The translations under genes and the position numbers were made by a program. Below, one piece after another: positions 15,709 through 32,390 of a stretch of DNA of 64,000 nucleotides. The notes below the pieces were generated by a model. It was not told the origin of the DNA. It saw only the letters and a program-made list of their open reading frames with translations, and did not search any database. The stretch is from Gammaproteobacteria bacterium 50_400_T64 (lineage in GTDB: Bacteria; Pseudomonadota; Gammaproteobacteria; Pseudomonadales; Porticoccaceae), in assembly GCA_002162755.1 (NCBI GenBank), contig MAAS01000004.1, positions 1-64,000 of the forward strand. Direction: 5' to 3'. Position 1 is the stretch's first letter. Every line of letters starts with the position of its first letter.

Positions 15709-15816
15709 CGCTTTCTCTCTCTTCACGTATGGTCACTACAAAAGGCCGCAGTAAATACACTACAGCCCACTTTTAAACAGGGTTTCCCCCATTTTAAATT
15801 CTTAACGTAAACTCTA

Positions 15817-19044: not shown

Positions 19045-20250
19045 CTATCCCGCCACAACTTTCTGATCGAAAAGCTTGCCTATTTCAGCACTGCTCAGAC
19101 CCAGATCATCGGCTAAAATCTCCTCGGTATGCTGACCCAGTGCCGGCGCTGGCTGTGCATTTTGACGCTCAAAGGCACTAAATTGTAAAGGGCTGGATGG
19201 TGATAAATACGTACCAATATTGCCTTGATCAACAGCACTAAACATGGGGTTTTCAACAGAGCACTCAGGATCACTATCGACCATTTGTTTCAGTGTCTGA
19301 TACTTGCCCCAGCAGACTTTATGCTCATCCAGTAAAGCGGTAACCTGGGCATAATTCTGCCCGGCAAACCAGGGTTCAAATAAAGCAGTCAGCTCTATGC
19401 GGGCCTGAAAACGATCACCTTCATGGCGTAGGTTCAGCCCGAGGCGCTCAGCCAGCTGGTCAATGTCATTACTCAGGCCTGTTGCTTTACAGATGCCCTT
19501 CCACTGATTACCGGTCAGGCCGACGATCATTACGCGACGTTTGTCAGCGGTTTCGAAATCCTTACCGTAGGCACCGAATAAATAGTTACCACAGGGCTGG
19601 CGATCTTCGGCGTTAATTTGCGCTTCGGCAATAAAACCGAGATTACCCATCGTCGCCAGTGCCACGTCGGCCAGTGCCAATTTTATCAACTGCCCTTCAC
19701 CACTGATACGTCGATGACGCTCTGCCGCCAACATGCCCAAAGCCAGCGTCTGCCCGGTAATCACATCCCAGGCGGCGAGCACATGATTAACAGGCTCCGT
19801 GTTTTCGCCAGTCATGGTCGGCAAACCCATGGCGCAGTTAACGGTGTAATCCACCGCCGAGCCACCGTGTCGATCACCACTGAGATTCATGTAAATCAAA
19901 TCATCACGATGCTCACGTAACTTATCGTAAGCAAGCCAGCCTTTGGCGGGGAAGTTACTCAAAAACATCCCCGCCTCTTCGCCCGGCGCGGTGATTAAAC
20001 GGGTGAGAATTTCCTGCCCTTCGGGCTTGCGAAAGTCAACAGCAATCGAGCGCTTGCCTTTATTCAGCCCAGCCCAGAACAAGCTTTGATTATTTTTGTC
20101 GACCGGCCAGCGACGGTAATCAAGACCGCCGCCAATCATGTCAAAGCGAATCACATCAGCGCCGAGTTGGGCCAGGGTCATCGCCCCCGAAGGTGCGGCA
20201 ACAAAAGCAGCCCCCTCGACAACGCGCAGTCCGGAGAGAATGTTTTTCAT
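19045..20250 (-). CDS. CoA-transferase family III, resembling mesaconyl-CoA C1-C4 CoA transferase (2-methylfumaryl-CoA isomerase)
   Basis: The product has 401 residues in the CaiB/BaiF fold, with the family's catalytic Asp most likely Asp162 in AAWDVITGQ. The first 75 residues (LRVVEGAAFVAAP, GADVIRFDMIGGGLDYRRWP, LFWAGLNKGKRSIAVD) and later NHVLAAWDVITGQ and LAAERHRR agree closely with what I recall of Mct from Chloroflexus, which moves CoA from C1 to C4 of mesaconate within one molecule. Alternatives within the family are alpha-methylacyl-CoA racemase and other CoA transferases. The ATG at 20250 has GGAAGAG before it. The gene lies downstream of the hydratase at 20365. Confidence 0.75.
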   Translation of the reverse strand: MKNILSGLRVVEGAAFVAAPSGAMTLAQLGADVIRFDMIGGGLDYRRWPVDKNNQSLFWAGLNKGKRSIAVDFRKPEGQEILTRLITAPGEEAGMFLSNFPAKGWLAYDKLREHRDDLIYMNLSGDRHGGSAVDYTVNCAMGLPTMTGENTEPVNHVLAAWDVITGQTLALGMLAAERHRRISGEGQLIKLALADVALATMGNLGFIAEAQINAEDRQPCGNYLFGAYGKDFETADKRRVMIVGLTGNQWKGICKATGLSNDIDQLAERLGLNLRHEGDRFQARIELTALFEPWFAGQNYAQVTALLDEHKVCWGKYQTLKQMVDSDPECSVENPMFSAVDQGNIGTYLSPSSPLQFSAFERQNAQPAPALGQHTEEILADDLGLSSAEIGKLFDQKVVAG

Positions 20251-20364
20251 GCTCTTCCTTTCATAAAAAGTTCCCATAACAAACGTCCACAATACATTCT
20301 TTGCCTGCCACTTCTCTGACTCATACTCACTACTTGATATGTATCGCCAGAGGCTTTTTCTGCT

Positions 20365-21219
20365 CTAGCCAACATCGGCAAAGCCATTGTCAATAACCAC
20401 TAAATCACGCTCGACCACAGTGCAGCGAAAAGCCACACCTTTATCAAGTGTCCAGATATCAGTGCGAATGGTTTCGCCCGGATAAACTGGCGCCGAAAAA
20501 CGCGCTTTAATACTGCGAAATTTAGACACATCGTAGTCACAGCAGGTTTTGAGTAACGCATGCCCGGCAACACCAAAGGTGCATAAGCCGTGAAGAATGG
20601 GGCGTTCAAAACCACCCTGCTTGGCAACGGCCGGATCGACATGAAGGGGATTATAGTCTCCCGACAAGCGATAAATCAGAGCGGCCTGCAACAAAGTCGG
20701 TAATTCACAGCTGCTATCGGGAGCCGTTTCAGGAATAGCCTGTGATACAGGTGGTCGGTCTGTGCAGCCGCCAAAACCACCCTGCCCGCGCGCCATAGTG
20801 TTTTGAATCAGCGTACATAGTGGCTCACCATCTTCGGTGGTCACGGTGCGCGAAGAATAAATAAAAACACCCTTGCCCTCGCCCTTGTCGATCACCTCAT
20901 CAACCTTGGTGGTGGCTTTAACTGTGCCCGCAGGCGGCAGGGGCTTGTGCAGAATAATTTCTTGATCGGCGTGCAACACTTTCGTCCAGTCAACGCCAGT
21001 ATCTGGCTCTTTCAACCAGAAGCCTGGATAGGCCAATACCGCAGCCATCGTCGGCAATGCACTGAGGTTTTCTTCGTAAACATAATTCAGTGCTTTTACG
21101 TCCAGCGGATCATAACCAACACCCGCGCCAAGGGCGTACAACATGGTGTCGCGCTCAGTATAGGTGTGGACGATCTCTTCAAATTTCCGATTTTTTAATG
21201 TCTCGTAAACAATTGCCAT
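20365..21219 (-). CDS. R-specific enoyl-CoA hydratase of the MaoC / MFE-2 (hydratase 2) type
   Basis: The product has 284 residues forming two hot-dog domains. The C-terminal domain has the hydratase 2 motif GDYNPLHVDP with Asp188 and His193, then GGFERPILHGLCTFG. This is the architecture of the hydratase part of peroxisomal multifunctional enzyme 2 (HSD17B4), which hydrates 2-enoyl-CoA to (3R)-hydroxyacyl-CoA. The next gene upstream encodes a matching (3R)-dehydrogenase-like SDR. A bidirectional-looking terminator separates the two genes. Confidence 0.9.
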   Translation of the reverse strand: MAIVYETLKNRKFEEIVHTYTERDTMLYALGAGVGYDPLDVKALNYVYEENLSALPTMAAVLAYPGFWLKEPDTGVDWTKVLHADQEIILHKPLPPAGTVKATTKVDEVIDKGEGKGVFIYSSRTVTTEDGEPLCTLIQNTMARGQGGFGGCTDRPPVSQAIPETAPDSSCELPTLLQAALIYRLSGDYNPLHVDPAVAKQGGFERPILHGLCTFGVAGHALLKTCCDYDVSKFRSIKARFSAPVYPGETIRTDIWTLDKGVAFRCTVVERDLVVIDNGFADVG

Positions 21220-21252
21220 TACTCAGCCTCGTTATTAAAAAACGCTATCTAT

Positions 21253-21282
21253 AAAAAAGGAGCGTCAGTACGCCCCTTTTTT
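21253..21282. terminator. Bidirectional-looking terminator between SDR and hydratase genes
   Basis: A stem AGGAGCGT / ACGCCCCT with a 4-base loop and one A-C mismatch is flanked by A6 on one side and T6 on the other. It could stop the SDR transcript, implying that the hydratase gene has its own promoter. Confidence 0.7.
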
Positions 21283-21318
21283 ATTACTCATTATATTTTC
21301 GTTCTATGCCCGCTGGCC

Positions 21319-22212
21319 TCAGACCGGATCCCAGGAGAAAACGTCTTGTGAACGATCCAGGGGATAGAAGTGGCTTTCGAGTTGCGGCATGGCTGTTTCA
21401 AAAATACTATCAATCGTCCAACCGTCACCGGCATGGCTTGAGCGCACAGGGCGCGATTGACCCATCAAGAAAATTTCATTCATGCGTACAGCAAAAACCT
21501 GACCAGTAATATCTTTCGCCTGATCGGAACACAAAGCGGCAACAACAATACCGACCTTCTCGGGAGTCATCTTTTTAAGCTTTTCAACGCGGGCAATTTG
21601 ATCCGGCGTAGTCGCTGGAATTGAAGCGGTCAAACGGCTCCAGGCGAAGGGTGCAATACAGTTTGAACGCACGTTATAACGCTGCATATCCAGAGCGATA
21701 GACTTGGACAAACCCACAATGCCCGCTTTAGCAGCCGCATAGTTAGCCTGACCAAAGTTACCGATCAAACCGGACGTAGACGTCATGTGTACACAGCAAC
21801 CACTTTCCTGATTACGGAAGTGAGTGGCGGCGGCACGGCTAACATTGAAGCTACCGTTCAAGTGAACGTTCATCACCTGGTGCCAGTCGTCCTGGGTCAT
21901 TTTGTGAAAGATCACATCGCGCAAGTTACCAGCGTTGTTAACAACGGCGCTAATTTCGCCAAAGTTATCGACAGCCTGGGTGACCATATTGTTAGCGCCT
22001 TCCCAATCGGCAACGCTATCAGTATTAGCAACAGCATCAACACCGAGGGCTTTAATTTCTGCAACCACTTCTTCAGCCACATCACGGTCGAGATCGTTAA
22101 CAACAACGTTACCACCCGCTTTGGCGATTTCCAGTGCGATGGTACGACCAATGCCACGGCCAGAGCCGGTGACAACAACAGATTTACCTTTTAAATGTTC
22201 TGTAACGCTCAT
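21319..22212 (-). CDS. SDR, (3R)-hydroxyacyl-CoA dehydrogenase-like (HSD17B4 type)
   Basis: The product has 297 residues. TGSGRGIG at 15-22, the acidic Asp40-Leu-Asp after the second strand (NAD preference), NNAG at 92-95, the catalytic Ser region near 145-147 and Tyr158/Lys162 in YAAAK define a classical SDR. The VVVTGSGRGIGR and VVVNDL pattern and the long C-terminal tail match the dehydrogenase part of MFE-2. It would oxidise the (3R)-hydroxyacyl-CoA made by the neighbouring hydratase. Substrate range unknown. Confidence 0.87.
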   Translation of the reverse strand: MSVTEHLKGKSVVVTGSGRGIGRTIALEIAKAGGNVVVNDLDRDVAEEVVAEIKALGVDAVANTDSVADWEGANNMVTQAVDNFGEISAVVNNAGNLRDVIFHKMTQDDWHQVMNVHLNGSFNVSRAAATHFRNQESGCCVHMTSTSGLIGNFGQANYAAAKAGIVGLSKSIALDMQRYNVRSNCIAPFAWSRLTASIPATTPDQIARVEKLKKMTPEKVGIVVAALCSDQAKDITGQVFAVRMNEIFLMGQSRPVRSSHAGDGWTIDSIFETAMPQLESHFYPLDRSQDVFSWDPV

Positions 22213-22272
22213 TGCTTTTCCCTTTTTTCATTAAATTAAAATACGAATAATAATTACCAAACCTTAATTAAT

Positions 22273-23958
22273 TTAAGCGTTGGCAACCAGCTCACGAGAA
22301 ATCACTTTCAGGGCCAGGGTTTCTTCCGCCCCTTCAAAAATTGACAGTACCCGCGCATCGACAAAATAGCGACTGACGGGGACTTCTTCGGCGTAACCCA
22401 TGCCGCCGTGAATTTGCAGGGCTTCTCTAGTCACCCACTCGGCAGCGCGACAAGCAAACAACTTCACCAGGCTCGCTTCCATTTTACCGCCGCCGGCATC
22501 CACTTCGCGCGCCACGGCATAACTAAACTGACGCGAGGCCAACAGCGTCGTCACCATGCGACTCAACTTCACCAGGGTCAACTGATAATCGGCAACGGGC
22601 TGCTTGAAAACTTTGCGTTCTTTGGCGTAATTAATCGCCTGTTCACTCGCTGCCTGCATTACCCCTGCCGCACGGGCTGAGGTTTGAATACGACCACCGG
22701 TTAACCCGGCCATAGCGTAGTAAAAGCCTTTGCCAATGCCCGCTTCTTCACCCACCAGATTAGCGTCGGGGACGAAATAGTCCTCAAAAAACAGGTCAAA
22801 CGAATGCATGCCTCGATAACCCAGGGTCGGAATCGATTTACCCGACAGCTTGCCGCCTTCTTCCTGTACCACATCAATTTCGTGGCCAAAGGTGCGGGGC
22901 TTTTCAACGAGGAAAAAACTCAGACCTTTATAACCGTCCGCATCCGTACCGGTGCGAGCCAGTGTTAGCAATACCGAAGCAGCACCGGCAAAAGTACACC
23001 AGGTTTTGCTGCCATTGAGCAGCCAACCGCCGTCGGTTTTCGTTGCTTTTAATTTCGCTGAAGCCAGGTCAGAGCCATAGTCAGGCTCCGTCAGGGCGAT
23101 ACCACAGAGGGTTTCACCACTGGCAATTTGTGGCAACCAGTGTTGGCGCTGAGCATCGGTGCCGCCCTTCATCAAAGCGCGGGCGAGAATTTCGGGACGG
23201 GTAATCAAGCTGCCCGCAGCACCGAGAGAGCCTCTCGACAATTCTTCAGTGACCAAAATCATGTAGAGGCTGTCATCACCGGCATCGGGCTGCAGACCGT
23301 CAAAGCGCTCGGGAATGGAAATACCAAAACAACCCATCTCGCGTAGGGGCTGCAAGATGCTCTCGGGAATATCGATGTCCTGGCGATGAATATCTTCAGC
23401 CAGCGGCATCACTACTTCCGTCGCAAAGCGGCGGAAGGTATCGCGAATTAATTCTTTTTCGCTGTCGAGATTCGACGGTAGAAAATCGCCCTCTCTGTCG
23501 ATCAACTGACGGCCCAGTGCCGCCATCATTTTTGCCGACAAATAATGACCGGCAATACCGGTGTTATCGAAGGCTTCAAAGCTGGCGCAAATACCTGCCA
23601 TGGTCAAACCATAGTCTGCGGGCCGTGCCAGCAAACGTCCGGCGACTGCCTTTAAGGCTTCACTAGCAAACTGACAGGCGACCCAGCCGGATAGCGCGTC
23701 GCGCTCAAGCACCTGATGGGTGTAATTTAATAGTGCTTCGGTGGCCGATAAATCCGCCACACAAAAAGAGGTTTCGTAACAGGCCAGTTGTTGTTCATCG
23801 AGTAATGCAGGCGACAAACCTTTCTCTGTACTACTGACTTTTTTAATATGTGCCAAAGCCTGATCGACCAGCGCTCTGGCACTCACAACAGCCTCAGTGA
23901 TTTGCTTGAGATCTCCGGCATAGTCACCGGTAACAGGCTGATTTTTTACTGCTTCCAT
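22273..23958 (-). CDS. Long acyl-CoA dehydrogenase resembling (2S)-methylsuccinyl-CoA dehydrogenase
   Basis: The product has 561 residues, about 170 more than a normal acyl-CoA dehydrogenase. Residues 1-160 form an all-helical N-terminal extension; the core starts near residue 168. Core motifs are ALTEPDYGSDLASAKLKA, LNGSKTWCTFAG and the canonical base Glu542 in FEGAEET. The extension, LGYRGMHSFDL and GRIQTSARAAGVMQAA match the pattern I know for Mcd, the methylsuccinyl-CoA dehydrogenase that makes mesaconyl-C1-CoA. Neither crotonyl-CoA carboxylase/reductase nor ethylmalonyl-CoA mutase is in the window, so this is not the classical ethylmalonyl-CoA pathway locus. A general long-type dehydrogenase remains possible. 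Confidence 0.72.
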   Translation of the reverse strand: MEAVKNQPVTGDYAGDLKQITEAVVSARALVDQALAHIKKVSSTEKGLSPALLDEQQLACYETSFCVADLSATEALLNYTHQVLERDALSGWVACQFASEALKAVAGRLLARPADYGLTMAGICASFEAFDNTGIAGHYLSAKMMAALGRQLIDREGDFLPSNLDSEKELIRDTFRRFATEVVMPLAEDIHRQDIDIPESILQPLREMGCFGISIPERFDGLQPDAGDDSLYMILVTEELSRGSLGAAGSLITRPEILARALMKGGTDAQRQHWLPQIASGETLCGIALTEPDYGSDLASAKLKATKTDGGWLLNGSKTWCTFAGAASVLLTLARTGTDADGYKGLSFFLVEKPRTFGHEIDVVQEEGGKLSGKSIPTLGYRGMHSFDLFFEDYFVPDANLVGEEAGIGKGFYYAMAGLTGGRIQTSARAAGVMQAASEQAINYAKERKVFKQPVADYQLTLVKLSRMVTTLLASRQFSYAVAREVDAGGGKMEASLVKLFACRAAEWVTREALQIHGGMGYAEEVPVSRYFVDARVLSIFEGAEETLALKVISRELVANA

Positions 23959-24008
23959 TTTTGTACTCGCGCTTGATTAACAGAGTGTTCAGAGGGGAAT
24001 TGATGATC

Positions 24009-24039
24009 AAAAAAAGAAACCGGCCTTACAGCCGGTTTC
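24009..24039 (-). terminator. Rho-independent terminator after the thiolase gene
   Basis: A 9-bp stem (GAAACCGGC / GCCGGTTTC) with a 6-base loop is followed on the minus strand by seven T. It lies just past the thiolase stop, so the methylsuccinyl-CoA-dehydrogenase-like gene downstream is likely a separate unit. Confidence 0.88.
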
Positions 24040-24055
24040 TCAAACAGATCAACAA

Positions 24056-25258
24056 TCAGATGCCGTATTCACCAATAATCGCAACACTGGAAACATTTTG
24101 GTGGGGGAAACCACCCAGGTTGTGAGTCAAGCCAATGGTCGGATTCGGCAACTGACGCTCGCCCGCTTTGCCGGACAACTGCAGGTACATTTCATAAAGC
24201 ATACGCAAACCGGTCGCTCCAATGGGGTGGCCGAAGCACTTCAGGCCGCCGTCAATCTGGCAGGGAATTTTACCGTCGGCATCAAAGACACCGTCCAGTA
24301 CATCCTTCACAGCACCACCATCTTCCGACAGAAAAAGATCTTCCATGGTGACCATTTCAGTCACTGAGAAGCAATCGTGCACTTCCGTCATGCTGACCTG
24401 CTCACGGGGCTTGGTAATGCCCGCTTCTGCGTAGGCACGTTTAGCAGCAACGCGAGTCGTGTGAACGTAGGAACCGTCCCAACCTTCGTAGCCACCTTCC
24501 TGACCGTTGGAAGCACATAGCTGCAGCGCTTTAACCGCAATCAACTGCTCTTTACCCAGGCTCTTAGCAATTTCAGGCGTAGTCACAATCGCACAGGAGG
24601 CACCGTCACTGACACCGCAGCAATCAAACAAGCCAATCGGCTCGGCGATCATCGGTGCATTGAGGGCTTGCTCCATGGTGATGGCACGCTGTAAGTGGGC
24701 CTTGGGATTCTTCAGGCCGTTGGCGTGGCTTTTCACCGAAACGTGGGCCATCGCGCGCTTGAGGTCTTCTTTGCTGGTGCCGTACTTACCGCGATAACCG
24801 GCTGCTAACTGGGCAAACATACCCGGTGCTGACAGATTCGGGTAATACAGATCATTCGCCACACCGCGTGAACGCTGGGGTAAACCTCCGTAACCCGTGT
24901 CTTTCAGTTTCTCAAAACCCATTGCCAAAGCGATATCGCAAGCACCCGATGCAACGGCATAAGTCGCTGCACGGAAGGCCTCGGTACCACTGGCGCAATA
25001 GTTTTCAATTTTAGTGACGGGGATATTGGGTAGACGCAAACCCATGCTCAATGGCATCGCACCGGGGCCAACGCTGTAGGCGTCGATACCGGTCGATTGC
25101 CATGCGGCTTCGATCTGGCTTTTTTCGATGCCCGCATCGGCGATGCACTCTTCGAAGGCTTCGGCCATCAAATCAGCAGGTTCACAATCCCAACGCTCGC
25201 CAAACTTACTGCAGCCAGCACCTAAAATAACGACTTTATCTTTAATTCCACTTGCCAT
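24056..25258 (-). CDS. SCP2/SCPx-type thiolase
   Basis: The product has 400 residues. The acyl-accepting Cys88 lies in ENYCASGTEAFRAA, and the C-terminal catalytic motif is CFGHPIGATGLRM, a form typical of the SCP2 (SCPx) thiolase branch rather than FadA. These thiolases cleave 3-oxoacyl-CoA with alpha-methyl or bulky side chains, and in bacteria are often paired with a DUF35 protein. Here the gene lies 24 bases downstream of the HMG-CoA-synthase-like/DUF35 gene on the same strand, so the two proteins probably act together. Confidence 0.9.
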   Translation of the reverse strand: MASGIKDKVVILGAGCSKFGERWDCEPADLMAEAFEECIADAGIEKSQIEAAWQSTGIDAYSVGPGAMPLSMGLRLPNIPVTKIENYCASGTEAFRAATYAVASGACDIALAMGFEKLKDTGYGGLPQRSRGVANDLYYPNLSAPGMFAQLAAGYRGKYGTSKEDLKRAMAHVSVKSHANGLKNPKAHLQRAITMEQALNAPMIAEPIGLFDCCGVSDGASCAIVTTPEIAKSLGKEQLIAVKALQLCASNGQEGGYEGWDGSYVHTTRVAAKRAYAEAGITKPREQVSMTEVHDCFSVTEMVTMEDLFLSEDGGAVKDVLDGVFDADGKIPCQIDGGLKCFGHPIGATGLRMLYEMYLQLSGKAGERQLPNPTIGLTHNLGGFPHQNVSSVAIIGEYGI

Positions 25259-25282
25259 GATATTTAGCTCCTAAGCTGATAG

Positions 25283-26725
25283 TTAGACTTGTATAGCTTT
25301 CCAGAAATATTTACGGAAACCGGCCTGATCGTCGATCTGCTTGAGACGGAAGTGCATAGACACTTTCGATCCCGTATCAAAGGTCTCGGCATCGACTTCA
25401 CTCATATCCATCATAATGCGGCCACCACCTTCGAAGGTCACCATGCCGAAATAGGCGGGTGGGTTGTAATCGAAGGTTAGGGTATCGGCAGTCCAGGTCG
25501 CGATCGTACCGGAGGCACCGGCCATGGGGTGGTCAACCTGGGTATCGTAAGCGCCACATTCGGGGTTAACACAATACTTGTGCTTGGGCATTTGTACGGT
25601 ATCGCAGGCTGTACATTTACCACCGAGGAAGCTGTTGGTCAGACCACGAGCACGATACATCGCTGACAGGTAACCCTGCTTGTTCACTTCTGAACGCTTG
25701 CCCAGCTCTTTCTCGAGCAGGTTATTAAACGACTGGTACTTGTTGTAGTTGGTTTCAGGACGACCATTGCTGAGGTGACCGGAAACGCCCTTGCCAGCAC
25801 GCTGATGACTAATCGCATCGGTCACTTTAAACAGCAAGACATCGCAACCCTGGCCAAAGCCCGCAACCAGTACCAAATCACCCGGTGCAGCCTGCTCAAG
25901 ACGATGAGCCAGCAGTAACATAACGTGTGCAGCACCGGTGATACCGACACTCTGCAGCAGGTTATCGGCAACGGCTTCGCCTTTAATACCAAGCTTTTTA
26001 GCGACCATCGGTGGCACACGGCCCTGCTCGGTGGGCAGTATAAAGTGGGCAATATCGCCAGCGCTAACACCCGACTTGCTCAACAAGGCATTAACGGCAT
26101 TGGGGACGATTTTCATATAGCCTTCGTCACGTACCCAGCGCTCTTCCCAGCCGTAGTCAAAGTCCTGACCTTCGCCGCGATAGTGGTCGATAAAATCAAC
26201 CGCCTGACTCTGGCTGGCAATCAACTCAGCGATGACATTTTCACCACCGACAGCAATGGCAGCAGCACCGTCACCGTAGAGCATTTCTTCACGAGAAGCG
26301 CACTTGGCTTTGCGATGCTCGGAAGCAACCAGTACAGCCTCTTTACCAGCAGCGGCAATATCCAGTGCCGACAACAAACCGGACGTCGCAGCACGTTGCG
26401 AGCAAGTGATATCCATGGTGCGCAGATCGGATGTATCGAGGTTGAGTGCTTCAGCAACGACCACTGAATTCTGGCGATCAGCAAAGGGCAACGTGGTCGA
26501 TGCCAACAACAGTGCAGCGGGGGCCTGGCCGGGAGCATTACCCAGGCAGTCGGTGTAGGCCTCAACCGCCATAGTGATGGTGTCTTCGTCCCAGTTACAA
26601 ATGGCTTTTTCGCCTTTTGCCAGGCCTTTTAAGCCGGGATCAAACCAGGCGTTAGCATCGGCAATGACCTGCTTCTGTAAGCGCATTCTCGGCAAATAAG
26701 CGCCGTAAGCTGTTATTCCTACCAT
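25283..26725 (-). CDS. HMG-CoA-synthase-like domain fused to a zinc-ribbon OB-fold (DUF35)
   Basis: The product has 480 residues in two parts. Residues 1-330 are a thiolase-fold, HMG-CoA synthase/KAS III-like domain with nucleophile Cys108 in DITCSQRAATSG and GDGAAAIAVG. Residues 365-480 are a DUF35 domain: the zinc ribbon is Cys371, Cys374, Cys385 and Cys390, followed by an OB-fold (GTIATWTADTLTFDYNPPAYFGMVTFEGG). In archaea, HMG-CoA synthase, thiolase and DUF35 form one channelling complex as separate chains; here synthase-like and DUF35 parts are one protein and the thiolase gene follows. The reaction is unknown: a Claisen or retro-Claisen step is inferred from the fold. Confidence 0.85.
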   Translation of the reverse strand: MVGITAYGAYLPRMRLQKQVIADANAWFDPGLKGLAKGEKAICNWDEDTITMAVEAYTDCLGNAPGQAPAALLLASTTLPFADRQNSVVVAEALNLDTSDLRTMDITCSQRAATSGLLSALDIAAAGKEAVLVASEHRKAKCASREEMLYGDGAAAIAVGGENVIAELIASQSQAVDFIDHYRGEGQDFDYGWEERWVRDEGYMKIVPNAVNALLSKSGVSAGDIAHFILPTEQGRVPPMVAKKLGIKGEAVADNLLQSVGITGAAHVMLLLAHRLEQAAPGDLVLVAGFGQGCDVLLFKVTDAISHQRAGKGVSGHLSNGRPETNYNKYQSFNNLLEKELGKRSEVNKQGYLSAMYRARGLTNSFLGGKCTACDTVQMPKHKYCVNPECGAYDTQVDHPMAGASGTIATWTADTLTFDYNPPAYFGMVTFEGGGRIMMDMSEVDAETFDTGSKVSMHFRLKQIDDQAGFRKYFWKAIQV

Positions 26726-26789
26726 GATATTTCCTTTAAAAATAAGCTATAAAAAAGTTAAACAGTCTCTGTTGAAAACCAGGCCTGTA

Positions 26790-27935
26790 CTACAAAGAGC
26801 GGCCAATAAAGAGCTTCATGATTTCAGTTGATCCGCCATAAATTCGGCGTACCCGCGCATCGGTGTACATACGCGAAATGGGGTATTCCCGCATGTAGCC
26901 GTAACCGCCAAAGAACTGCAGGCAAGTATCGACAATTTTACCTTCTTTTTCCGTAGTCCACAGTTTTGCCATGGCACCTTCTTGCGCGGTCAATGTGCCA
27001 TCAACAATCTTGCCCAGGCATTGGTCCAGATAGGCCCAACCGACGGCCAGCTCGGTCGCCACATCGGCCAAACTAAAAGCTGTGTTTTGCTGGGCGAAAA
27101 GTGGCTTACCAAAGGCTTCACGCTCTTTGGTGTATTCAACGGTAATTTCATAGGCACGCTGCGCTTCTGCCCAGGCACGGAAGGCAACGGTCAGACGCTC
27201 GCGGGGTAGCTCGTCCATCAGATAAGAAAAGCCCTTGCCCTCTTCGCCAATTAGATTGCCAACCGGCACTCGCACATCGGCAAAGAACATCTCGGAAGTA
27301 TCCGCTGCTTTCTGACCGATTTTGTCCAGATTACGGCCCTTCTCATAACCCTCGGTACCCGTCTCGACGATCACCAGACTGATGCCTTTGGCACCCAGTG
27401 TGGGATCGGTTTTACAAACCACGATAACGAAGTCAGAGTGCTGGCCATTAGTAATAAACGTCTTCTGGCCGTTGATCACATACTCGTCACCATCGCGAAT
27501 CGCCGTGGTACGAATCGCCTGCAAGTCGCTGCCAGTACTCGGCTCGGTCATGGCGATGGAAGAAATAATTTCACCGCTGACCATGGGTGGCAACCACTTC
27601 TGCTTCAGCTCTTCACTGGCGTGGTTGAGAATATAGTAGGCAGTAATATCGGACTGCAGCGCAAAACCACAGCTACCACCACCGATGGCGTAACCGATTT
27701 CCTCGGAGGAAATCATGTTGTATTTAAAGTCAGCACCGGGGCCGCCGTACTCTTCGGGAATACCGCAACACAGCAGACCTTTCTCGCCGGCGCTGCGCCA
27801 GAACTCTCGAGGCACGATGCTGGCATTTTCCCATTCTTCAATATTGGGCTCTAGCTCTTCACGAAAAAAGCGCCGCGCATTAGCGCGAAACAATTCGTGG
27901 TCGCTATCGTAAATCGACCGATTCTCCATAGACAT
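26790..27935 (-). CDS. Acyl-CoA dehydrogenase, long-chain (LCAD-like)
   Basis: The product has 381 residues. SIAMTEPSTGSDLQAIRT and VINGQKTFITNGQHSD mark the FAD region; FQQNTA-like substrate loops follow. The C-terminal segment reads YGGSTEIMKLFIGR, with Gly where most members have the base, while Glu247 in LPRERLTVA is at the LCAD/IVD position. That combination (YGG plus PxER) is typical of mammalian-type long-chain acyl-CoA dehydrogenase, known for branched acyl chains. It lies upstream of the HMG-CoA-synthase-like gene with a 64-base gap. Confidence 0.9.
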   Translation of the reverse strand: MSMENRSIYDSDHELFRANARRFFREELEPNIEEWENASIVPREFWRSAGEKGLLCCGIPEEYGGPGADFKYNMISSEEIGYAIGGGSCGFALQSDITAYYILNHASEELKQKWLPPMVSGEIISSIAMTEPSTGSDLQAIRTTAIRDGDEYVINGQKTFITNGQHSDFVIVVCKTDPTLGAKGISLVIVETGTEGYEKGRNLDKIGQKAADTSEMFFADVRVPVGNLIGEEGKGFSYLMDELPRERLTVAFRAWAEAQRAYEITVEYTKEREAFGKPLFAQQNTAFSLADVATELAVGWAYLDQCLGKIVDGTLTAQEGAMAKLWTTEKEGKIVDTCLQFFGGYGYMREYPISRMYTDARVRRIYGGSTEIMKLFIGRSL

Positions 27936-28106
27936 ATTTAACTATCCTATTAACCATTCTATTGGTCGCGGGCAGCAGCGGCTCGCGCTAAAACGGCGAA
28001 ATTGTAGCGCAATTTATGCTGCGCAGGCACCTGCTACTACCGAGTAACTCGCAAGTCAGTTTTATATCAAAGGGTTAACAGGCTTTATTAAAGTACTTAA
28101 CGCAAA

Positions 28107-28139
28107 AAATCCCCGCACCTTTCAGCAGTGCGAGGATTT
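28107..28139 (-). terminator. Rho-independent terminator after the flavoenzyme gene
   Basis: A long stem (ATCCcCGCAC / GTGCGaGGAT, one mismatch) with a 9-base loop is preceded on the plus strand by A6, giving a T run on the minus strand. It follows the stop at 28166. Confidence 0.8.
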
Positions 28140-28165
28140 CTATATGCCTGACTAAAAGACTTAGA

Positions 28166-29359
28166 TCACTTTATTTTATCGGTAAAGTGCGGTAACACCT
28201 GCTCAGTCAACAACTCATAATGACGCATCATTTGGTGCTGAGGCACTAAACCATTGTAGGTAAAGAGCCAGAAATAATCGCAAGGCAATTCTTTAAACAA
28301 CGCCTCGAACTTACGCTTCACCGTATCGGGGCTACCGTAGATAATCAGGCCGCGCTCAACCATAGTTTCAAAATTATTGGGCACATCGAAAGGTGATTCG
28401 CCGGGGTTGGCGACAGCAGCATTGAAACCAAAGGGCTGGAAGAAGTTACACCAGATGTAATTGCCGCCATCTTTGGCAATTTGATAGGCTTCTTCGTCAG
28501 TATCGGCAACATACACCTCACGGGTCATCCCCATGCGATAAGGCTTGCCGGCCTTTTGAGCAGCATCTTTTGCAGCGCGAATATGGCTTTTGGCGAGCTC
28601 CATATTGGTAATGATGGTAATCGGCGTAACATCATTTTCCTGCGCCCATTCAATAGAACTCGCAGACACACTGAAAGGCTGGAACAAGTCAGGCATACGT
28701 TTGTTGAACGTAGGCGGGGCAATACCGATTTCAGTCAAAATGCCCTTATCATCAACGCCCTGGCCGTATTTGCGGGTTACGTCATGGGTATTCCAAAAGG
28801 TATTTGGCGTAGGGATCTGCCAAAACTTACTACTGTGCGAGAAGGTATCGTTAGACCAGGCTTTCATAATAATATCGAAATGGTCGTAATAGACCTCTTT
28901 TTTCAGCGCATCATAAGCATCAGCGCCCAGCTCATTGGCATCCGCCATACCCTTCATTTGCTGACCGAGAGTCGACACCCATCGAGGCTGGTAGCCGCGA
29001 GCAAAGCCCGCAAAAGTACGCCCACCTAACATCTGATCAACCATGGCGATATCTTCAGCCAGGCGCACCGGGTTATGGGCAGGTAGTACATTACCCAACT
29101 GACCAAACTTCATGTTTTTGGTTTGCATGCCAAAGTACAAATTAAGCAGGATCGGGTTGGTGGAAACTTCTTCACCTTCAATATGAAAGTGATGCTCCGT
29201 GGTACCCATGCCGTAGTAACCGTGCTCGTCCATGTACTGAACTTGCTCGGTCAGCTCTTTGAGCATTTCCTGGTACAAGTCGGTGCGCTTACCGGCCATT
29301 CCTTTTTCAATTTCTTCCCTATTGCCCACTACGGGCATATAAAACGAACCTACTTCCAT
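28166..29359 (-). CDS. Luciferase-like (LLM class) flavin-dependent monooxygenase
   Basis: The product has 397 residues in the bacterial-luciferase TIM-barrel family: EHHFHIEGEEVSTNPILLNLYFGMQTKNMKFGQLGNVLPAHNPVRLAEDIAMVDQMLGGRTFAGFARGYQ is the long conserved N-terminal block. Such enzymes use reduced FMN (or F420) from a separate reductase to oxygenate aldehydes, ketones (Baeyer-Villiger) or other carbon substrates. No reductase gene is adjacent. It has a large upstream region (29360-29700) containing a sigma-54-like promoter and twin inverted 12-mers, so it seems to be separately regulated from the neighbouring crotonase gene. Confidence 0.88.
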   Translation of the reverse strand: MEVGSFYMPVVGNREEIEKGMAGKRTDLYQEMLKELTEQVQYMDEHGYYGMGTTEHHFHIEGEEVSTNPILLNLYFGMQTKNMKFGQLGNVLPAHNPVRLAEDIAMVDQMLGGRTFAGFARGYQPRWVSTLGQQMKGMADANELGADAYDALKKEVYYDHFDIIMKAWSNDTFSHSSKFWQIPTPNTFWNTHDVTRKYGQGVDDKGILTEIGIAPPTFNKRMPDLFQPFSVSASSIEWAQENDVTPITIITNMELAKSHIRAAKDAAQKAGKPYRMGMTREVYVADTDEEAYQIAKDGGNYIWCNFFQPFGFNAAVANPGESPFDVPNNFETMVERGLIIYGSPDTVKRKFEALFKELPCDYFWLFTYNGLVPQHQMMRHYELLTEQVLPHFTDKIK

Positions 29360-29485
29360 AACTATCGCCTCAACATCAGTCTCAATTTTAGTTTCACTTG
29401 AAGGCCGTGGGTATTTTCAATTTCTTCGCAACCAACATTTCCGCAAATCACTAAAAGCCCTGCCAACAAAGCTTATCTAACATAA

Positions 29486-29500
29486 GCATAAGGCATGCCA
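29486..29500 (-). promoter_or_regulatory. Candidate sigma-54 promoter of the flavoenzyme gene
   Basis: Read on the minus strand: TGGCATG, four bases, ATGC. This fits the -24/-12 spacing exactly, with mismatches at one -24 base and one -12 base. It is about 125 bases upstream of the ATG at 29359. The AcoR-like activator encoded at 16920 would be a natural partner. Motif match only. Confidence 0.35.
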
Positions 29501-29583
29501 ACTTATCCAGCAGGAGCTTATCGTTTAAATTTCAAAAGGTTATGACTGAAACATAATCCAAAAGCGAGAACCGCCCTAGAAGG

Positions 29584-29631
29584 ATGTTGTGTAATGACAC
29601 AACATTGGGACACCAAGCCGTGTCATTACAC
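29584..29631. promoter_or_regulatory. Twin inverted 12-mers, candidate activator/operator sites
   Basis: The 12-mer GTGTAATGACAC occurs at 29589-29600 and again as its exact reverse complement at 29620-29631, with centres 31 bp (three helical turns) apart. The first copy lies inside a longer perfect inverted repeat, ATGTTGTGT-AATG-ACACAACAT (29584-29605). The pair lies about 85-145 bp upstream of the sigma-54-like site, the usual distance for enhancer-binding proteins. Confidence 0.55.
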
Positions 29632-29656
29632 CCCACCGCTTTATAAAGCGGCGGGG
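29631..29656. terminator. Palindromic hairpin downstream of the crotonase gene
   Basis: CCGCTTTATAAAGCGG (29636-29651) is a perfect palindrome, extended by four more G-C pairs beyond one mismatch. It lies 45 bases past the crotonase stop codon. There is no T run, so termination is uncertain; an operator role is also possible. Confidence 0.4.
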
Positions 29657-29700
29657 GCAGGATCAAACATCAGCCGTCTTTAAAACGACTTTCCCTGGTG

Positions 29701-30498
29701 CTACTTACCTTTAAAAACAGGCTCGCGTTTTTCCAGAGCGGCATCAATCGCCTCAAGGTGATCTTCGGTATTTTGCAGGGTCGCCTGCATCCCTGCTGCC
29801 ATTTCCAGCGCGCCGGAAAGAGGCATATTTTGCGACTCTCGCAATAGCTTTTTAGCGTAACGAACACCCAGCGGCGGATGAGCAACGATACGCGTAGCTA
29901 CGGCCATAGCGGCATCGAGCAGCGCCTCTGGAGCAACAACGTCGGAGACCATGCCCCATTTATCAGCCTTAGTAGCATCGATCATGTCGCAGGTGTAGCT
30001 CATCTCACAGGCGCGAGACAGGCCAATCACGCGGGGCAAGAACCATGCACCACCGTCACCGGGAATCAAACCAACGCGCATAAAGCTCTCGGCGAAGAGG
30101 GCTTTTTCAGAGGCGATGCGGATATCGCACATCATCGTCAAGTCACAACCGGCACCAATTGCATGGCCATTAACAGCGGCAATAACCGGCACGGTCATTT
30201 GATCCATCGTGCGGGGAATTTGCTGAATCATGTCCAGATACCAGTTACGAATCTGGTGGGTACTGAGTTTTTTCTCCTGAGTCATGGCGCGAATTTCTTT
30301 CAGGTTGCCACCGGAAGAAAAGCTTTTACCAGCACCCGTGAGAATGACACAGCTCACGCCTTCATCCGCTTCCGCTTTGTTGAGGCTTTCAATCAAGCTG
30401 GGCACCAGCACATCGGACAAGGCATTGCGAGTCTCTGGCTGATTCAGGGTAATGGTGACGATACGCCCCGTCTGTTCATACAATACGGCTTCGGTCAT
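29701..30498 (-). CDS. Crotonase-family protein lacking both hydratase glutamates
   Basis: The product has 265 residues of the enoyl-CoA hydratase/isomerase fold, with the oxyanion-hole segments SFSSGGNLKEI and NGHAIGAGCD. The two catalytic glutamates of enoyl-CoA hydratase are replaced: Asp119 (in GAGCDL) and Phe139 (in AESFMRVGL). Asp148 in IPGDGGAW lies near the position used by PaaG-type isomerases. It is therefore probably an isomerase or other crotonase activity, not an ordinary hydratase, although automatic annotation would call it enoyl-CoA hydratase. It lies downstream of the CitE-like gene, 84 bases away. Confidence 0.85.
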   Translation of the reverse strand: MTEAVLYEQTGRIVTITLNQPETRNALSDVLVPSLIESLNKAEADEGVSCVILTGAGKSFSSGGNLKEIRAMTQEKKLSTHQIRNWYLDMIQQIPRTMDQMTVPVIAAVNGHAIGAGCDLTMMCDIRIASEKALFAESFMRVGLIPGDGGAWFLPRVIGLSRACEMSYTCDMIDATKADKWGMVSDVVAPEALLDAAMAVATRIVAHPPLGVRYAKKLLRESQNMPLSGALEMAAGMQATLQNTEDHLEAIDAALEKREPVFKGK

Positions 30499-30582
30499 GT
30501 TTTTTTCCTTTGTTGATGTAACGGTGATAGCAGGCAGCCGGAGGTATCATCCCAGCAACCCGTGTTCTGTGTAGAAAAGTTA

Positions 30583-31473
30583 TTACGACTGGCGCGCTTG
30601 CAAAGCCTCGTGCTTACGCAAGGTTTCCTCGGCGCGGGCAACGACCGGCGCATCAATCATTTTGCCCTTGTATTCCACGGCACCACGCCCTGCCGCGAGC
30701 CCTTGCTCGAAAGCGGCCAACAAACCAGTAGCATGCTCGACAGCCTCCGCAGAAGGCATAAACTCTTCATTCATAATACTAATTTGGCTGGGGTGAATGC
30801 CCAGAGCACCACTAAAGCCCAGCTGCTTGGCCTGACGGATTTTCGCCCTGAAAGCATCGAGATCGGAATAATCGGCGATGGATCCGACAAAACCCAGCGG
30901 CAACACACCGGCTTTGCGAGCAGCAAATACAGCACGCTGGTTGGGGTACATCAAGCCAATTTCACTCGGCTCCATACCCACTTCTGAAGAGAAATCTTCG
31001 GCACCAATAAACACCCCCAACACGCGATCAGAAGCGGCGGCAATGGCATCGATATTTTCCAGGCCATCAAGTCCTTCAATAAAAGCCAGAATGCGAGTGT
31101 GCCCGTGGGGCAATTGTTTCTCGACTTCCAGCTCGTCGATGACCTCGGCAATGAATTGAATATGGTCAGCACTGGTCACTTTGGGTACGGCAATGGTGTG
31201 CACATCTTGACAGACTGCGGCTTCGAGATCTCGCACGGCCAAACGCCAGGGGCGGTTGATACGCACCAGCACATCCAGCCCATGACCAGCAACCGTGGCT
31301 GCCGCCGCAGGCACGACGTTACGAGCATTGTCCTTTTCGGACAAAACCACACTATCTTCAAGATCGAGAATAATCGCGTCGGCACCACGGGTGTGGGCTT
31401 TAGCGACGAATTTTTCGACATTAGCGGGGACAAATAGCGCCGAGCGCCACAGGGGTAATTCTTGTTGGGTCAC
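30583..31473 (-). CDS. CitE/HpcH-family CoA-ester lyase (citramalyl- or malyl-CoA lyase-like)
   Basis: The product has 296 residues with the family pattern: RSALFVPANVEKFVAKA at the N-terminus, DAIILDLEDSV, VRINRPW, and FIGAEDFSSEVG with the metal-binding acidic residues, then LGFSGALGIHPSQI. Such lyases cleave citramalyl-CoA to acetyl-CoA and pyruvate, or malyl/methylmalyl-CoA to glyoxylate plus acyl-CoA, with Mg2+. Its neighbour at 31542 is a mesaconyl-C4-CoA/itaconyl-CoA-hydratase-like enzyme, which makes citramalyl-CoA; this favours a citramalyl-CoA lyase role. The two genes are 68 bases apart on one strand. Confidence 0.85.
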   Translation of the reverse strand: MTQQELPLWRSALFVPANVEKFVAKAHTRGADAIILDLEDSVVLSEKDNARNVVPAAAATVAGHGLDVLVRINRPWRLAVRDLEAAVCQDVHTIAVPKVTSADHIQFIAEVIDELEVEKQLPHGHTRILAFIEGLDGLENIDAIAAASDRVLGVFIGAEDFSSEVGMEPSEIGLMYPNQRAVFAARKAGVLPLGFVGSIADYSDLDAFRAKIRQAKQLGFSGALGIHPSQISIMNEEFMPSAEAVEHATGLLAAFEQGLAAGRGAVEYKGKMIDAPVVARAEETLRKHEALQARQS

Positions 31474-31526
31474 GATTTAGCTCCTCTAAAAACCAGTTTT
31501 TTAATACTGCTCATTACTACCGCAAA

Positions 31527-31556
31527 CTACTTCAAAACAACCTATTTCAAAACAAC
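31527..31556. repeat. 15-bp tandem duplication covering the hydratase stop codon
   Basis: Two adjacent 15-base units (CTACTTCAAAACAAC and CTATTTCAAAACAAC) differ at one base. The stop codon of the hydratase gene is in the second unit (31542-31544) and a spare in-frame stop occurs in the first. It looks like a recent slippage duplication. Confidence 0.75.
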
Positions 31557-32390
31557 CTTGGCCTGCATGGTCATCGCACCTTCGTGATCAACGACCCACA
31601 GGTTCAAACCCTCGTCGCTGCGGCAGCCCTGAATCTGGAAGGCATTACCATCAATGAGTGGGCGCACGGCACGGTAGTCATAATGGGCAATTTCCGCATC
31701 GGGCAATTCACTGCGCACCAGATCGAGTAACAAAGTCGCACTCAGCGGGCCGTGCACCACCAAACCGGCATAGCCCTCTTCGTTCATCGCGTAGTTGCGG
31801 TCGTAATGAATACGGTGACTGTTAAAGGTCAGGGCTGAAAAACGAAACAGCAGTACCGGGTCTGGCACCACTGTGCGGCTAAACTCCGCCTCAAACTTTG
31901 GTGTCATCGGCTTCGGCGCGGGTGCACCGGGGGCTGGATCTTCGCGATAGACGAGGTTTTGCGTATCACTAATCGCCAGGGTATCGCCGCTGAAAACTTC
32001 ATGCTCAACAACGACAAAAACCAAATTGCCGCTACCACCCTGCTTGTGAGTGACGCTCTTTACAGTACTGACTCTGCGCACAGCATCACCAATTTTCAGA
32101 GCCTGGTGAAAGTCGACCTTGCCCGATGCCCACATGCGACGCGGCAGCGGTACGGGCGGTAGAAAACCACCCTTCTTCGGATGACCGTCAGTGCTGATAT
32201 CAGACTGGCGCGCCGTCGGCAAAAAGTGCAGCCAGTGGCCGGGTTTGGCGAGAGCATCGCCCGCCTGAGGCAGCACCTGCCAATCCAGCGTCGCCGCCAT
32301 GGCCTGAGCGGTGGCCAGGGAAATCAAATCTTCGTGGCTTTCCTGCTTACCTTCCCACTGCTGTAAATGCTCTAAATCGATCTCTGTCAT
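31542..32390 (-). CDS. MaoC-type hydratase resembling mesaconyl-C4-CoA (3-methylfumaryl-CoA) / itaconyl-CoA hydratase
   Basis: The product has 282 residues: an N-terminal FAS1-like dehydratase (hot-dog) domain with HWLHFLPTARQSDISTDGHPK and GGFLPPVPLPRRMWASGKV, and a C-terminal hot-dog domain with LTFNSHRIHYDRNYAMNEEGYAGLVVHGPLSATLLLDL (His and Asp likely catalytic). The proline-rich PVPLPRRMWA loop is characteristic of the Meh/Ich group, which hydrates mesaconyl-C4-CoA or itaconyl-CoA to citramalyl-CoA. The product of the next gene downstream is a CitE-type lyase, so the pair fits citramalyl-CoA formation and cleavage. Which unsaturated acyl-CoA is used cannot be decided here. Confidence 0.83.
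   Translation of the reverse strand: MTEIDLEHLQQWEGKQESHEDLISLATAQAMAATLDWQVLPQAGDALAKPGHWLHFLPTARQSDISTDGHPKKGGFLPPVPLPRRMWASGKVDFHQALKIGDAVRRVSTVKSVTHKQGGSGNLVFVVVEHEVFSGDTLAISDTQNLVYREDPAPGAPAPKPMTPKFEAEFSRTVVPDPVLLFRFSALTFNSHRIHYDRNYAMNEEGYAGLVVHGPLSATLLLDLVRSELPDAEIAHYDYRAVRPLIDGNAFQIQGCRSDEGLNLWVVDHEGAMTMQAKVVLK

Follow-up and report, generated by a model that had tools for sequence, protein, structure and literature searches.

A putative gene module for the catabolism of methylsuccinyl-CoA through its C1 ester in a Porticoccaceae genome and its relatives

Studies have shown that methylsuccinate can be degraded through C4-CoA esters. This C4 route, shown in 2025, runs from methylsuccinate over methylsuccinyl-C4-CoA, mesaconyl-C4-CoA and citramalyl-CoA to acetyl-CoA and pyruvate (PMC12290011) and is also covered in PMC9875883; papers are cited here by PMC number. 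Methylsuccinyl-C1-CoA was called a dead end for Cupriavidus necator by the authors (PMC12290011). In this study, we analyzed a stretch of 64,000 nucleotides from Gammaproteobacteria bacterium 50_400_T64 (Porticoccaceae; GCA_002162755.1, contig MAAS01000004.1, positions 1 to 64,000), called the window below, which is contig C8 of a 3.05 Mb draft assembly with 95% completeness. An initial annotation had proposed that four of its genes, encoding a methylsuccinyl-CoA dehydrogenase (Mcd), a mesaconyl-CoA transferase (Mct), a mesaconyl-C4-CoA/itaconyl-CoA hydratase (Ich, also Meh) and a CitE-type lyase (Ccl), act one after another. We believe that these four genes are likely to be a terminal catabolic module that would turn methylsuccinyl-C1-CoA into acetyl-CoA and pyruvate. 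On the comparisons below, the module is real and recurrent, and it is most likely a variant of methylsuccinate catabolism that is entered through the C1 ester.

All four genes belong to a block of acyl-CoA genes that run in one direction on the minus strand (10695-35913). Their open reading frames are intact, and positions, family matches and structure matches all agree with the initial annotation, which had overlooked a fifth gene, the short dehydrogenase FadE5 beside Ich. The five genes are as follows.

19045..20250, minus strand: Mct, mesaconyl-CoA transferase (TIGR04253; structures 8apq/7xkg; described residues kept)
22273..23958, minus strand: Mcd, long methylsuccinyl-CoA dehydrogenase of C1 type (53.7% identity to 8ciw and 38.1% to 6es9, N-terminal extension included)
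30583..31473, minus strand: CitE-type acyl-CoA lyase, putative citramalyl-CoA lyase, Ccl (PF03328)
31542..32390, minus strand: mesaconyl-C4-CoA/itaconyl-CoA hydratase, Ich/Meh (8huc/8khg, about 202 bits; motif FNxHRIHYD)
32442..33602, minus strand: short acyl-CoA dehydrogenase FadE5, putative (RS)-methylsuccinyl-C4-CoA dehydrogenase (similarity and context)

In the proposed pathway, Mcd would oxidize methylsuccinyl-C1-CoA to mesaconyl-C1-CoA, and Mct would move the CoA within the molecule to give mesaconyl-C4-CoA. Ich would hydrate this ester to (S)-citramalyl-CoA, which Ccl would cleave to acetyl-CoA and pyruvate, while FadE5 would feed methylsuccinyl-C4-CoA into the same mesaconyl-C4-CoA pool. 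We infer every reaction of this pathway, the substrate of Ccl and the upstream source.

Judged by its N-terminal extension, substrate arginines and catalytic glutamate, the window Mcd appears to be a C1-type methylsuccinyl-CoA dehydrogenase. It has 561 amino acids, and its acyl-CoA dehydrogenase core starts at about residue 163. The long extension before the core, which the initial annotation had pointed out and which is expected to span about 170 residues in C1-type enzymes, aligns with both 8ciw and 6es9. The top solved structure, 8ciw, is named "(2S)-methylsuccinyl-CoA dehydrogenase" and matched with 568 bits over residues 24-558, followed by 6es9 (PdMCD) with 294 bits; the other 58 of the best 60 of 108 structure matches reached at most 221 bits and covered the core only. 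Three substrate arginines and a catalytic glutamate have been described for PdMCD (PMC5798300), and R252, R376, R421 and E535 (PdMCD numbering) were kept in the window Mcd and in 67 of 67 relatives. The initial annotation had asked whether Mcd and Mct fall outside the characterized clades, and neither the Mcd tree nor the catalytic residues, which both proteins keep, spoke for this. In a quick tree, the window Mcd grouped with 8ciw, with Mcds from contigs carrying crotonyl-CoA carboxylase/reductase (Ccr; L134, L149) and with Mcds adjoining mesaconyl-C1-CoA hydratase (Mch; L164, L135, Accumulibacter). The 6es9 sequence stood outside this group on a long branch, and its position is therefore unsure.

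For Mct, whose open reading frame may begin at 20292, the best family by far was NCBIfam TIGR04253 (2-methylfumaryl-CoA isomerase), with 605.8 bits against 119 for the next family. The top solved structures 8apq and 7xkg matched with 576 and 572 bits at 62.5% and 62.8% identity. Leu43, Arg47, Tyr136 and Asp165 have been described for the intramolecular CoA transfer (PMC9813914, PMC9196870), and all four (RcMct numbering) are present in the window Mct. Among 95 Mct relatives, R47 and D165 occur in all 95 and Y136 in 94. At position 314, the relatives with arginine were mostly from Chloroflexota and Accumulibacter, and the others had Gly, Lys, Ser or further residues. Mct is the sole CoA_transf_3 match within the window; the whole assembly (3.05 Mb) has 16 family III CoA-transferase matches.

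Structures of two Ich relatives have been solved, 8huc and 8khg, of which 8khg is named itaconyl-CoA hydratase; we take both to be P. aeruginosa proteins. The window Ich is 42.0% identical to 8huc and 46.8% identical to a Meh-like protein of Chloroploca. The lyase next to it belongs to the CitE/HpcH family as the initial annotation had said, and citramalyl-CoA specificity was not singled out, because malyl-CoA lyases, CLYBL and Ccl all match it. Its structure model (pLDDT 77.5, built from five sequences) identified the fold of the malyl/citramalyl-CoA lyase superfamily only. In 18 of 18 other loci where both were found, a Ccl with at least 44% identity adjoins Ich. A different arrangement was seen in the loci L156, L158 and L161 of family f43, in which Ich stands beside a short PF19315-like protein, a distant CitE protein and an acyl-CoA dehydrogenase that shares about 46% identity with FadE5. 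These loci may hold an Ich cluster of another kind that works with the same Mcd-Mct pair.

That the four genes act together is supported by gene order and co-occurrence, that is, by comparison of sequences. We compared 80 named Mct loci, which are the closest of at least 548 relatives, so the sample leans towards the query; many of them stop at contig edges. Genes were called with simple open reading frame and BLAST rules, by which some neighbors will have been missed. Mcd lay inside the fetched stretch in 50 of the 80 loci, 14 had only neighbors of the 3-hydroxypropionate type, and 16 had neither. The 50 consist of 44 loci without 3-hydroxypropionate-type neighbors and six Accumulibacter loci with such neighbors and with Mcd on the opposite strand. 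Mcd and Mct were co-directional within 2.5 kb in 43 of the 44. The closely related operons L044-L050 (Porticoccaceae or Gammaproteobacteria) have an Mct 74-92% identical to that of the window. Marinobacter loci carry FadE4, the HMG-CoA-synthase-like protein, thiolase, Mcd, a short-chain dehydrogenase/reductase (SDR), MaoC and Mct, and one of them (L051, from Marinobacter litoralis CARE-V18) also carries Ich and Ccl, so that the four genes form a single run there.

The tightest arrangement was found in four genomes of one genus (L145-L148; G131, G250, G231 and G377), in which Ich, Ccl, Mcd and Mct form one contiguous, co-directional run with open reading frames that overlap or lie 35-79 bases apart. 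Ahead of this run are an HMG-CoA-synthase-like/OB protein, a thiolase, two enoyl-CoA hydratases and a 3-hydroxyacyl-CoA dehydrogenase of 503-509 amino acids (family scan in L147 only), and also an alpha/beta hydrolase where the fetched stretch extends far enough. In these four loci, neither a MaoC homologue nor an SDR close to that of the window was called (L147 has an SDR with 30% identity), and the same steps of beta-oxidation could be carried out by hydratases and a dehydrogenase from other families. What is kept is the set of thiolase, Mcd, Mct, Ich and Ccl. In G010, G017 and G021, a FadE6-FadE5-Ich-Ccl-enoyl-CoA hydratase block is kept on contigs separate from Mcd-Mct. Two near-alike copies of this block occur in one assembly (G006:C7 and G006:C9; L140, L141), perhaps reflecting a strain mixture rather than a duplication.

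The co-occurrence of the genes was examined in 38 relatives and in 391 genomes of the same order; in the order-wide searches, the first three to six candidates were scored per genome. Mct with at least 74% identity was found in 10 of the 38 relatives, and Ich in nine of these ten vs none of the other 28. In the tenth, G001, the start of a contig falls immediately before Ccl. In the 391 genomes, Mct was found in 19, Mcd in 50, Ich in 37 and Ccr in one. Mct occurred with Mcd in 17 of its 19 genomes and with Ich in 16 of 19; all three were present in 16 genomes with seven family codes, so that 16 of the 17 genomes with Mct and Mcd have Ich. Two weak Mct-like matches (43% in G032, 44% in G212) were left out of these genome counts; the G212 gene (L163) adjoins an Ich and a Ccl and is included among the 95 rows of the Mct residue counts. 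The Fisher p values from the genome comparisons were 6e-15, 1e-15 and 9e-5, which overstate the evidence because the genomes are related and not independent.

A typical Mch, judged by hand as a 393-431-amino-acid frame with both halves of PF19315, was found in none of the 17 genomes with Mct and Mcd. Of the 33 genomes with Mcd and without Mct, 18 have a typical Mch, always adjoining Mcd, and two have Ich; 15 of the 33 are without a typical Mch too and fit neither fate. From this pattern, mesaconyl-C1-CoA seems to have two alternative fates, either Mch and malyl-CoA lyase (Mcl) or Mct, Ich and Ccl. Counting matches to an ethylmalonyl-CoA mutase (Ecm)-like query with at least 56% identity, this mutase occurs in one of the 17 genomes with Mct and Mcd (G135, the genome that also has Ccr) and in all four genomes of Mch or Ccr type tested. 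G084, G202 (L164) and G036 (L135) carry Mcd, Mch and an Ecm-like mutase together, with no Ccr at the cut-off.

The pair also occurs on plasmids. On the conjugative IncP plasmid pAKD34 (L169), adjacent Mcd and Mct genes (54% and 57% identity) are flanked by transposase genes, and rdpA and the gene of an aromatic transporter lie at a distance of about 10 kb. A plasmid of Paraburkholderia sp. D15 carries Ich (47%), a Ccl-like gene (34%), Mcd (54%) and Mct (58%) in one 9-kb stretch. It also has a DUF35-type protein and a thiolase, and an intradiol dioxygenase follows about 10 kb on. A Variovorax plasmid has a hydrolase, an HMG-CoA-synthase-like protein, a thiolase, hydratases, a dehydrogenase, a flavin oxidoreductase, Mcd and Mct in a single run. 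On a plasmid of Paraburkholderia sprentiae (L177), an Ich homologue and a CoA ester lyase stand amid two cytochromes P450, a rubredoxin, a GMC oxidoreductase and a thiolase, which is suggestive of terpenoid or alicyclic breakdown.

Several observations weigh against our interpretation. In the substrate pocket of Mcd, A285 and F287 of PdMCD are replaced by I and L in the window, and the variant A282I of RsMCD has been reported as inactive (PMC5798300), although 8ciw has I at both positions. R314 of RcMct is a lysine in the window Mct and an arginine in just 18 of the 95 relatives, and the 605.8 bits of Mct lie below the curated cut-off of 725 for TIGR04253, so we claim only that it works in an Mct-like way and not strict equivalog membership. 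Ccl scored 183 bits for TIGR01588 and 146 bits for RipC, both below the cut-off (375 for RipC), and it may be a different CitE-type lyase; in family f43, the CitE protein near Ich is just 33% identical to it. Ich was within the fetched locus in just four of the 44 Mcd-linked loci. Among the genomes of the order, Mct occurs with neither Mcd nor Ich in G239 and G337, and G220 has Mct and Mcd without Ich. G220 also encodes a 371-amino-acid, two-domain PF19315 protein unlinked to Mcd, which we did not count as Mch; counting it, Mch would be present in one of 17. On the plasmids, the thiolase of Paraburkholderia D15 is just 25% identical to the window thiolase, and the Ich of Variovorax SRS16 is found apart from the run with Mcd and Mct, next to genes for a CoA-transferase, a lyase and an adenylosuccinate-lyase-like protein, a setting like one that has been assigned to a different pathway (PMC12290011).

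In transcriptional order, the FadE5 gene comes directly before Ich. FadE5 shares 61-63% identity with the Ich-adjacent dehydrogenase of six clusters (families f21 and f36, the former of which we take to be Pseudomonas), with which it grouped in a quick tree with a support of 90. These clusters also carry a Ccl-like lyase 30-33% identical to the window Ccl; a CoA-transferase was called by the open reading frame rule in five of the six, and a Pfam scan of two clusters confirmed MmgE/PrpD in both. Their arrangement fits the published itaconate/methylsuccinate cluster, whose dehydrogenase uses both enantiomers of methylsuccinyl-C4-CoA (PMC12290011). By context, similarity and the quick tree, FadE5 is a putative ortholog of that dehydrogenase (PA0879), and this likeness is why the window may take in both C1 and C4 esters of methylsuccinyl-CoA. 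An itaconate CoA-transferase together with MmgE/PrpD, the mark of the five-gene itaconate/methylsuccinate cluster, was not found in the window, where no MmgE/PrpD was detected among the open reading frames scanned by family models.

Mct and Ich could also be part of a partial or complete 3-hydroxypropionate bi-cycle, in which glyoxylate and propionyl-CoA give mesaconyl-C1-CoA via Mcl and Mch, and Mct, Meh and Mcl then give acetyl-CoA and pyruvate. The enzyme families are identical, and mct and meh have been used as markers of this cycle in Proteobacteria (PMC7565560, PMC8139981; the latter doubts autotrophy). Mct stands beside Mcl-like and Mch-like genes and two CoA-transferases (taken for Smt) mainly in loci of Chloroflexota and Accumulibacter, whereas the window does not have this gene order, and the presence of Mcd in the block suggests that the source is methylsuccinyl-CoA. 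In the window genome, PF19315 was matched with half of the model only, in frames of 156 and 193 amino acids. With no typical Mch found there, this explanation was rejected, and we regard it as very improbable. An even smaller chance is given to the ethylmalonyl-CoA pathway, in which methylsuccinyl-CoA would come from crotonyl-CoA via Ccr and Ecm. The Mcd family fits it, and one genome of the order, G135, combines Ccr, an Ecm-like mutase, Mcd, Mct, Ich and Ccl. It was rejected for the window genome, a draft in which one gene could be missing at 95% completeness: no Ccr at the family cut-off and no typical Mch were found, as the initial annotation had supposed for Ccr and Mch, and the Ecm-like query had no match at E 1e-60, by which methylmalonyl-CoA mutase is probably absent too. 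The six genomes of the same genus gave the same outcome for Ccr, Mch and Ecm.

It is unlikely that only FadE5, Ich and Ccl act on C5 dicarboxylyl-CoA esters while Mcd and Mct serve another pathway and are merely nearby. The similarity of FadE5 to the dehydrogenases of C4-type clusters and its place beside Ich would fit this, as would three Porticoccaceae-type relatives with FadE5-Ich-Ccl on a different contig from Mcd-Mct. However, the presence of Ich follows that of Mct over both genome sets, the single run of Ich, Ccl, Mcd and Mct in four genomes has no FadE5-type gene called there, and the window offers Mct as its only CoA_transf_3 match and no MmgE/PrpD among its scanned open reading frames. 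The homologues of Mcd and Mct might instead use a larger 2-substituted succinyl-CoA with the CoA shifted between its carboxyls, like ThnP/ThnO in anaerobic naphthalene degradation. Intramolecular CoA transfer ahead of dehydrogenation is known for a ring dicarboxylate (PMC11659651), and the window enzymes deviate from characterized ones at A285, F287 and R314. ThnP, however, is a family I transferase, unlike Mct (PMC11659651), and 8ciw, which is named as a (2S)-methylsuccinyl-CoA dehydrogenase, carries a pocket change like that of the window Mcd, with I and I at the two positions. The linkage to Ich and Ccl, which suit C5 compounds, also argues against larger substrates, and we consider such substrates improbable.

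Returning to the C1-entry module, the surrounding genes suggest an upstream source. The other genes of the block are listed below.

10695-11858, 11906-12967 and 12998-14164, minus strand: three acyl-CoA dehydrogenases (12998-14164 best PDB 6wy9, 4x28)
14281..15726, minus strand: aldehyde dehydrogenase (NCBIfam aldehyde dehydrogenase models, those listed all below cut-off)
15817..16728, minus strand: HSL-type alpha/beta hydrolase (PF07859)
16920..18938, minus strand: sigma-54-dependent activator, likely regulator of the block (DhaR/PrdR-type models, below cut-off)
20365..21219, minus strand: MaoC/MFE-2-type enoyl-CoA hydratase, candidate for an upstream beta-oxidation step (PF01575, PF22622)
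21319..22212, minus strand: SDR, candidate 3-hydroxyacyl-CoA dehydrogenase (PF00106/PF13561)
24056..25258, minus strand: SCP2-type thiolase, candidate for methylsuccinyl-CoA release (NF004810, 668.8 bits, cut-off 403)
25283..26725, minus strand: fused HMG-CoA-synthase-like and Zn-ribbon/OB (ChsH2, DUF35-type) protein (PF08541, PF12172)
26790..27935, minus strand: acyl-CoA dehydrogenase FadE4 (2pg0, 388 bits; LCAD 8w0t, 345 bits)
28166..29359, minus strand: luciferase-like (LLM) monooxygenase (PF00296)
29701..30498, minus strand: enoyl-CoA hydratase family protein (PF00378; NF006699 above cut-off)
34099..35913, minus strand: acyl-CoA dehydrogenase with C-terminal domain, FadE6 (PF12806)

In the 44 Mcd-linked loci, homologues were found of MaoC in 27, of the thiolase (structure matches 7yvy and 6esq) in 26, of the fused protein in 25, of the SDR in 20 and of FadE4 in 17. 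The fused protein, which recurs with the SCP2-type thiolase near Mcd, had its best PDB matches in PhlA (9skh/5m3k) and the archaeal thiolase/HMG-CoA-synthase/DUF35 complex 6esq. Judged by its motif, the catalytic cysteine seems to be missing, and for this reason it is taken as a probable partner of the thiolase. The enoyl-CoA hydratase adjoins Ccl, and FadE6 is close to Ich-Ccl, in Porticoccaceae-type loci. The luciferase-like monooxygenase was seen at this spot in genomes of the same genus only, and not in every one. The sigma-54 activator adjoins Mct in the same-genus loci that reach that far and not in G010, G017 and G021. The hydrolase and the aldehyde dehydrogenase are retained in three genomes of two other genera, and the order of the three acyl-CoA dehydrogenases is retained in relatives; 11906-12967 and 12998-14164 may form a heteromeric pair.

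We speculated that an acyl-CoA dehydrogenase of the block, MaoC, SDR and thiolase would produce methylsuccinyl-C1-CoA by thiolysis of 4-methyl-3-oxoadipyl-CoA. In this thiolysis, the CoA ends beside the methyl-bearing carbon, which gives the C1 ester used by the long Mcd. The precursor can arise from 3-methyladipyl-CoA or from ortho cleavage of 4-methylcatechol (PMC6449761), and 3-methyladipic acid is the end product of omega-oxidation of phytanate in humans (PMC7754141). A methyl-branched adipyl-CoA therefore fits the chemistry as a candidate source, and the isoprenoid origin suggested in the initial annotation is chemically sound and remains a candidate. The cytochrome P450 content of 13 genomes gave little information on the substrate.

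More tentatively, and with somewhat more doubt than confidence, we suggest that Mcd-Mct-Ich-Ccl serves widely as an exchangeable end module for methylsuccinyl-C1-CoA, recruited by beta-oxidation of methyl-branched acids, by plasmid-borne ring-cleavage pathways and, in at least one genome (G135), by the ethylmalonyl-CoA pathway; many marine mct/meh genes taken as markers of CO2 fixation would then be catabolic. In G135 (L149, G135:C21:146000-165999), Mcd forms a run with Ccr, an Ecm-like mutase and a MeaB-like GTPase, Mct, Ich and Ccl lie on the opposite strand adjoining Mcd, and no PF19315 match was found in the genome. It is possible that G135 has a variant of the ethylmalonyl-CoA pathway ending in acetyl-CoA and pyruvate. 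If so, it would be a natural acetyl-CoA assimilation with the net conversion of acetyl-CoA and CO2 to pyruvate without the glyoxylate shunt. With this module, methylsuccinyl-C1-CoA, which is expected as the end product when methyl-branched adipyl-CoA is degraded, would have its own route. The module would account for the mct and meh genes of those heterotrophic marine Gammaproteobacteria which have been listed under the 3-hydroxypropionate bi-cycle in metagenome studies. It would also offer a natural enzyme set joining ethylmalonyl-CoA-type chemistry to acetyl-CoA and pyruvate.

The initial annotation knew of no description of the combined route, and this holds in part. As the C4 sister route was published in 2025 (PMC12290011), the C1 entry through Mcd and Mct is the only new part, within the literature that could be searched: no description of methylsuccinyl-C1-CoA passing through Mct to acetyl-CoA and pyruvate in nature was found in publications since 2018 on methylsuccinyl-CoA, with subscription journals mostly outside reach. 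The 4-methylmuconolactone (mml) pathway of Cupriavidus has methylsuccinyl-CoA, the substrate of the module, and acetyl-CoA as its described end (PMC6449761). At 403-452 kb of pHG1, the incomplete gene table names no acyl-CoA dehydrogenase or CaiB-type CoA-transferase, and the mml link was not seen. The ethylmalonyl-CoA pathway shares the long Mcd that makes mesaconyl-C1-CoA. It ends in propionyl-CoA and glyoxylate, whereas the route of the window, whose genome has no detected Ccr, Ecm or typical Mch, would end in acetyl-CoA and pyruvate. The second cycle of the 3-hydroxypropionate bi-cycle (Mch, Mct, Meh, Mcl) shares Mct, Meh/Ich and the cleavage of citramalyl-CoA. Its mesaconyl-C1-CoA comes from glyoxylate and propionyl-CoA and its lyase is the trifunctional Mcl, whereas the mesaconyl-C1-CoA of the window would come from methylsuccinyl-CoA through Mcd, and the lyase is a small CitE-type protein. 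The itaconate/methylsuccinate cluster of C. necator and Pseudomonas aeruginosa (ich, mcd, mmgE, ict, ccl) shares Ich, Ccl and the steps from mesaconyl-C4-CoA over citramalyl-CoA to acetyl-CoA and pyruvate, and like the window it has a short FadE5-type dehydrogenase beside Ich (PMC12290011). It differs in activating and oxidizing the C4 ester, without Mct and without a long C1-type Mcd (PMC12290011), whereas Mcd and Mct of the window would use methylsuccinyl-C1-CoA, the ester described as a dead end for C. necator.

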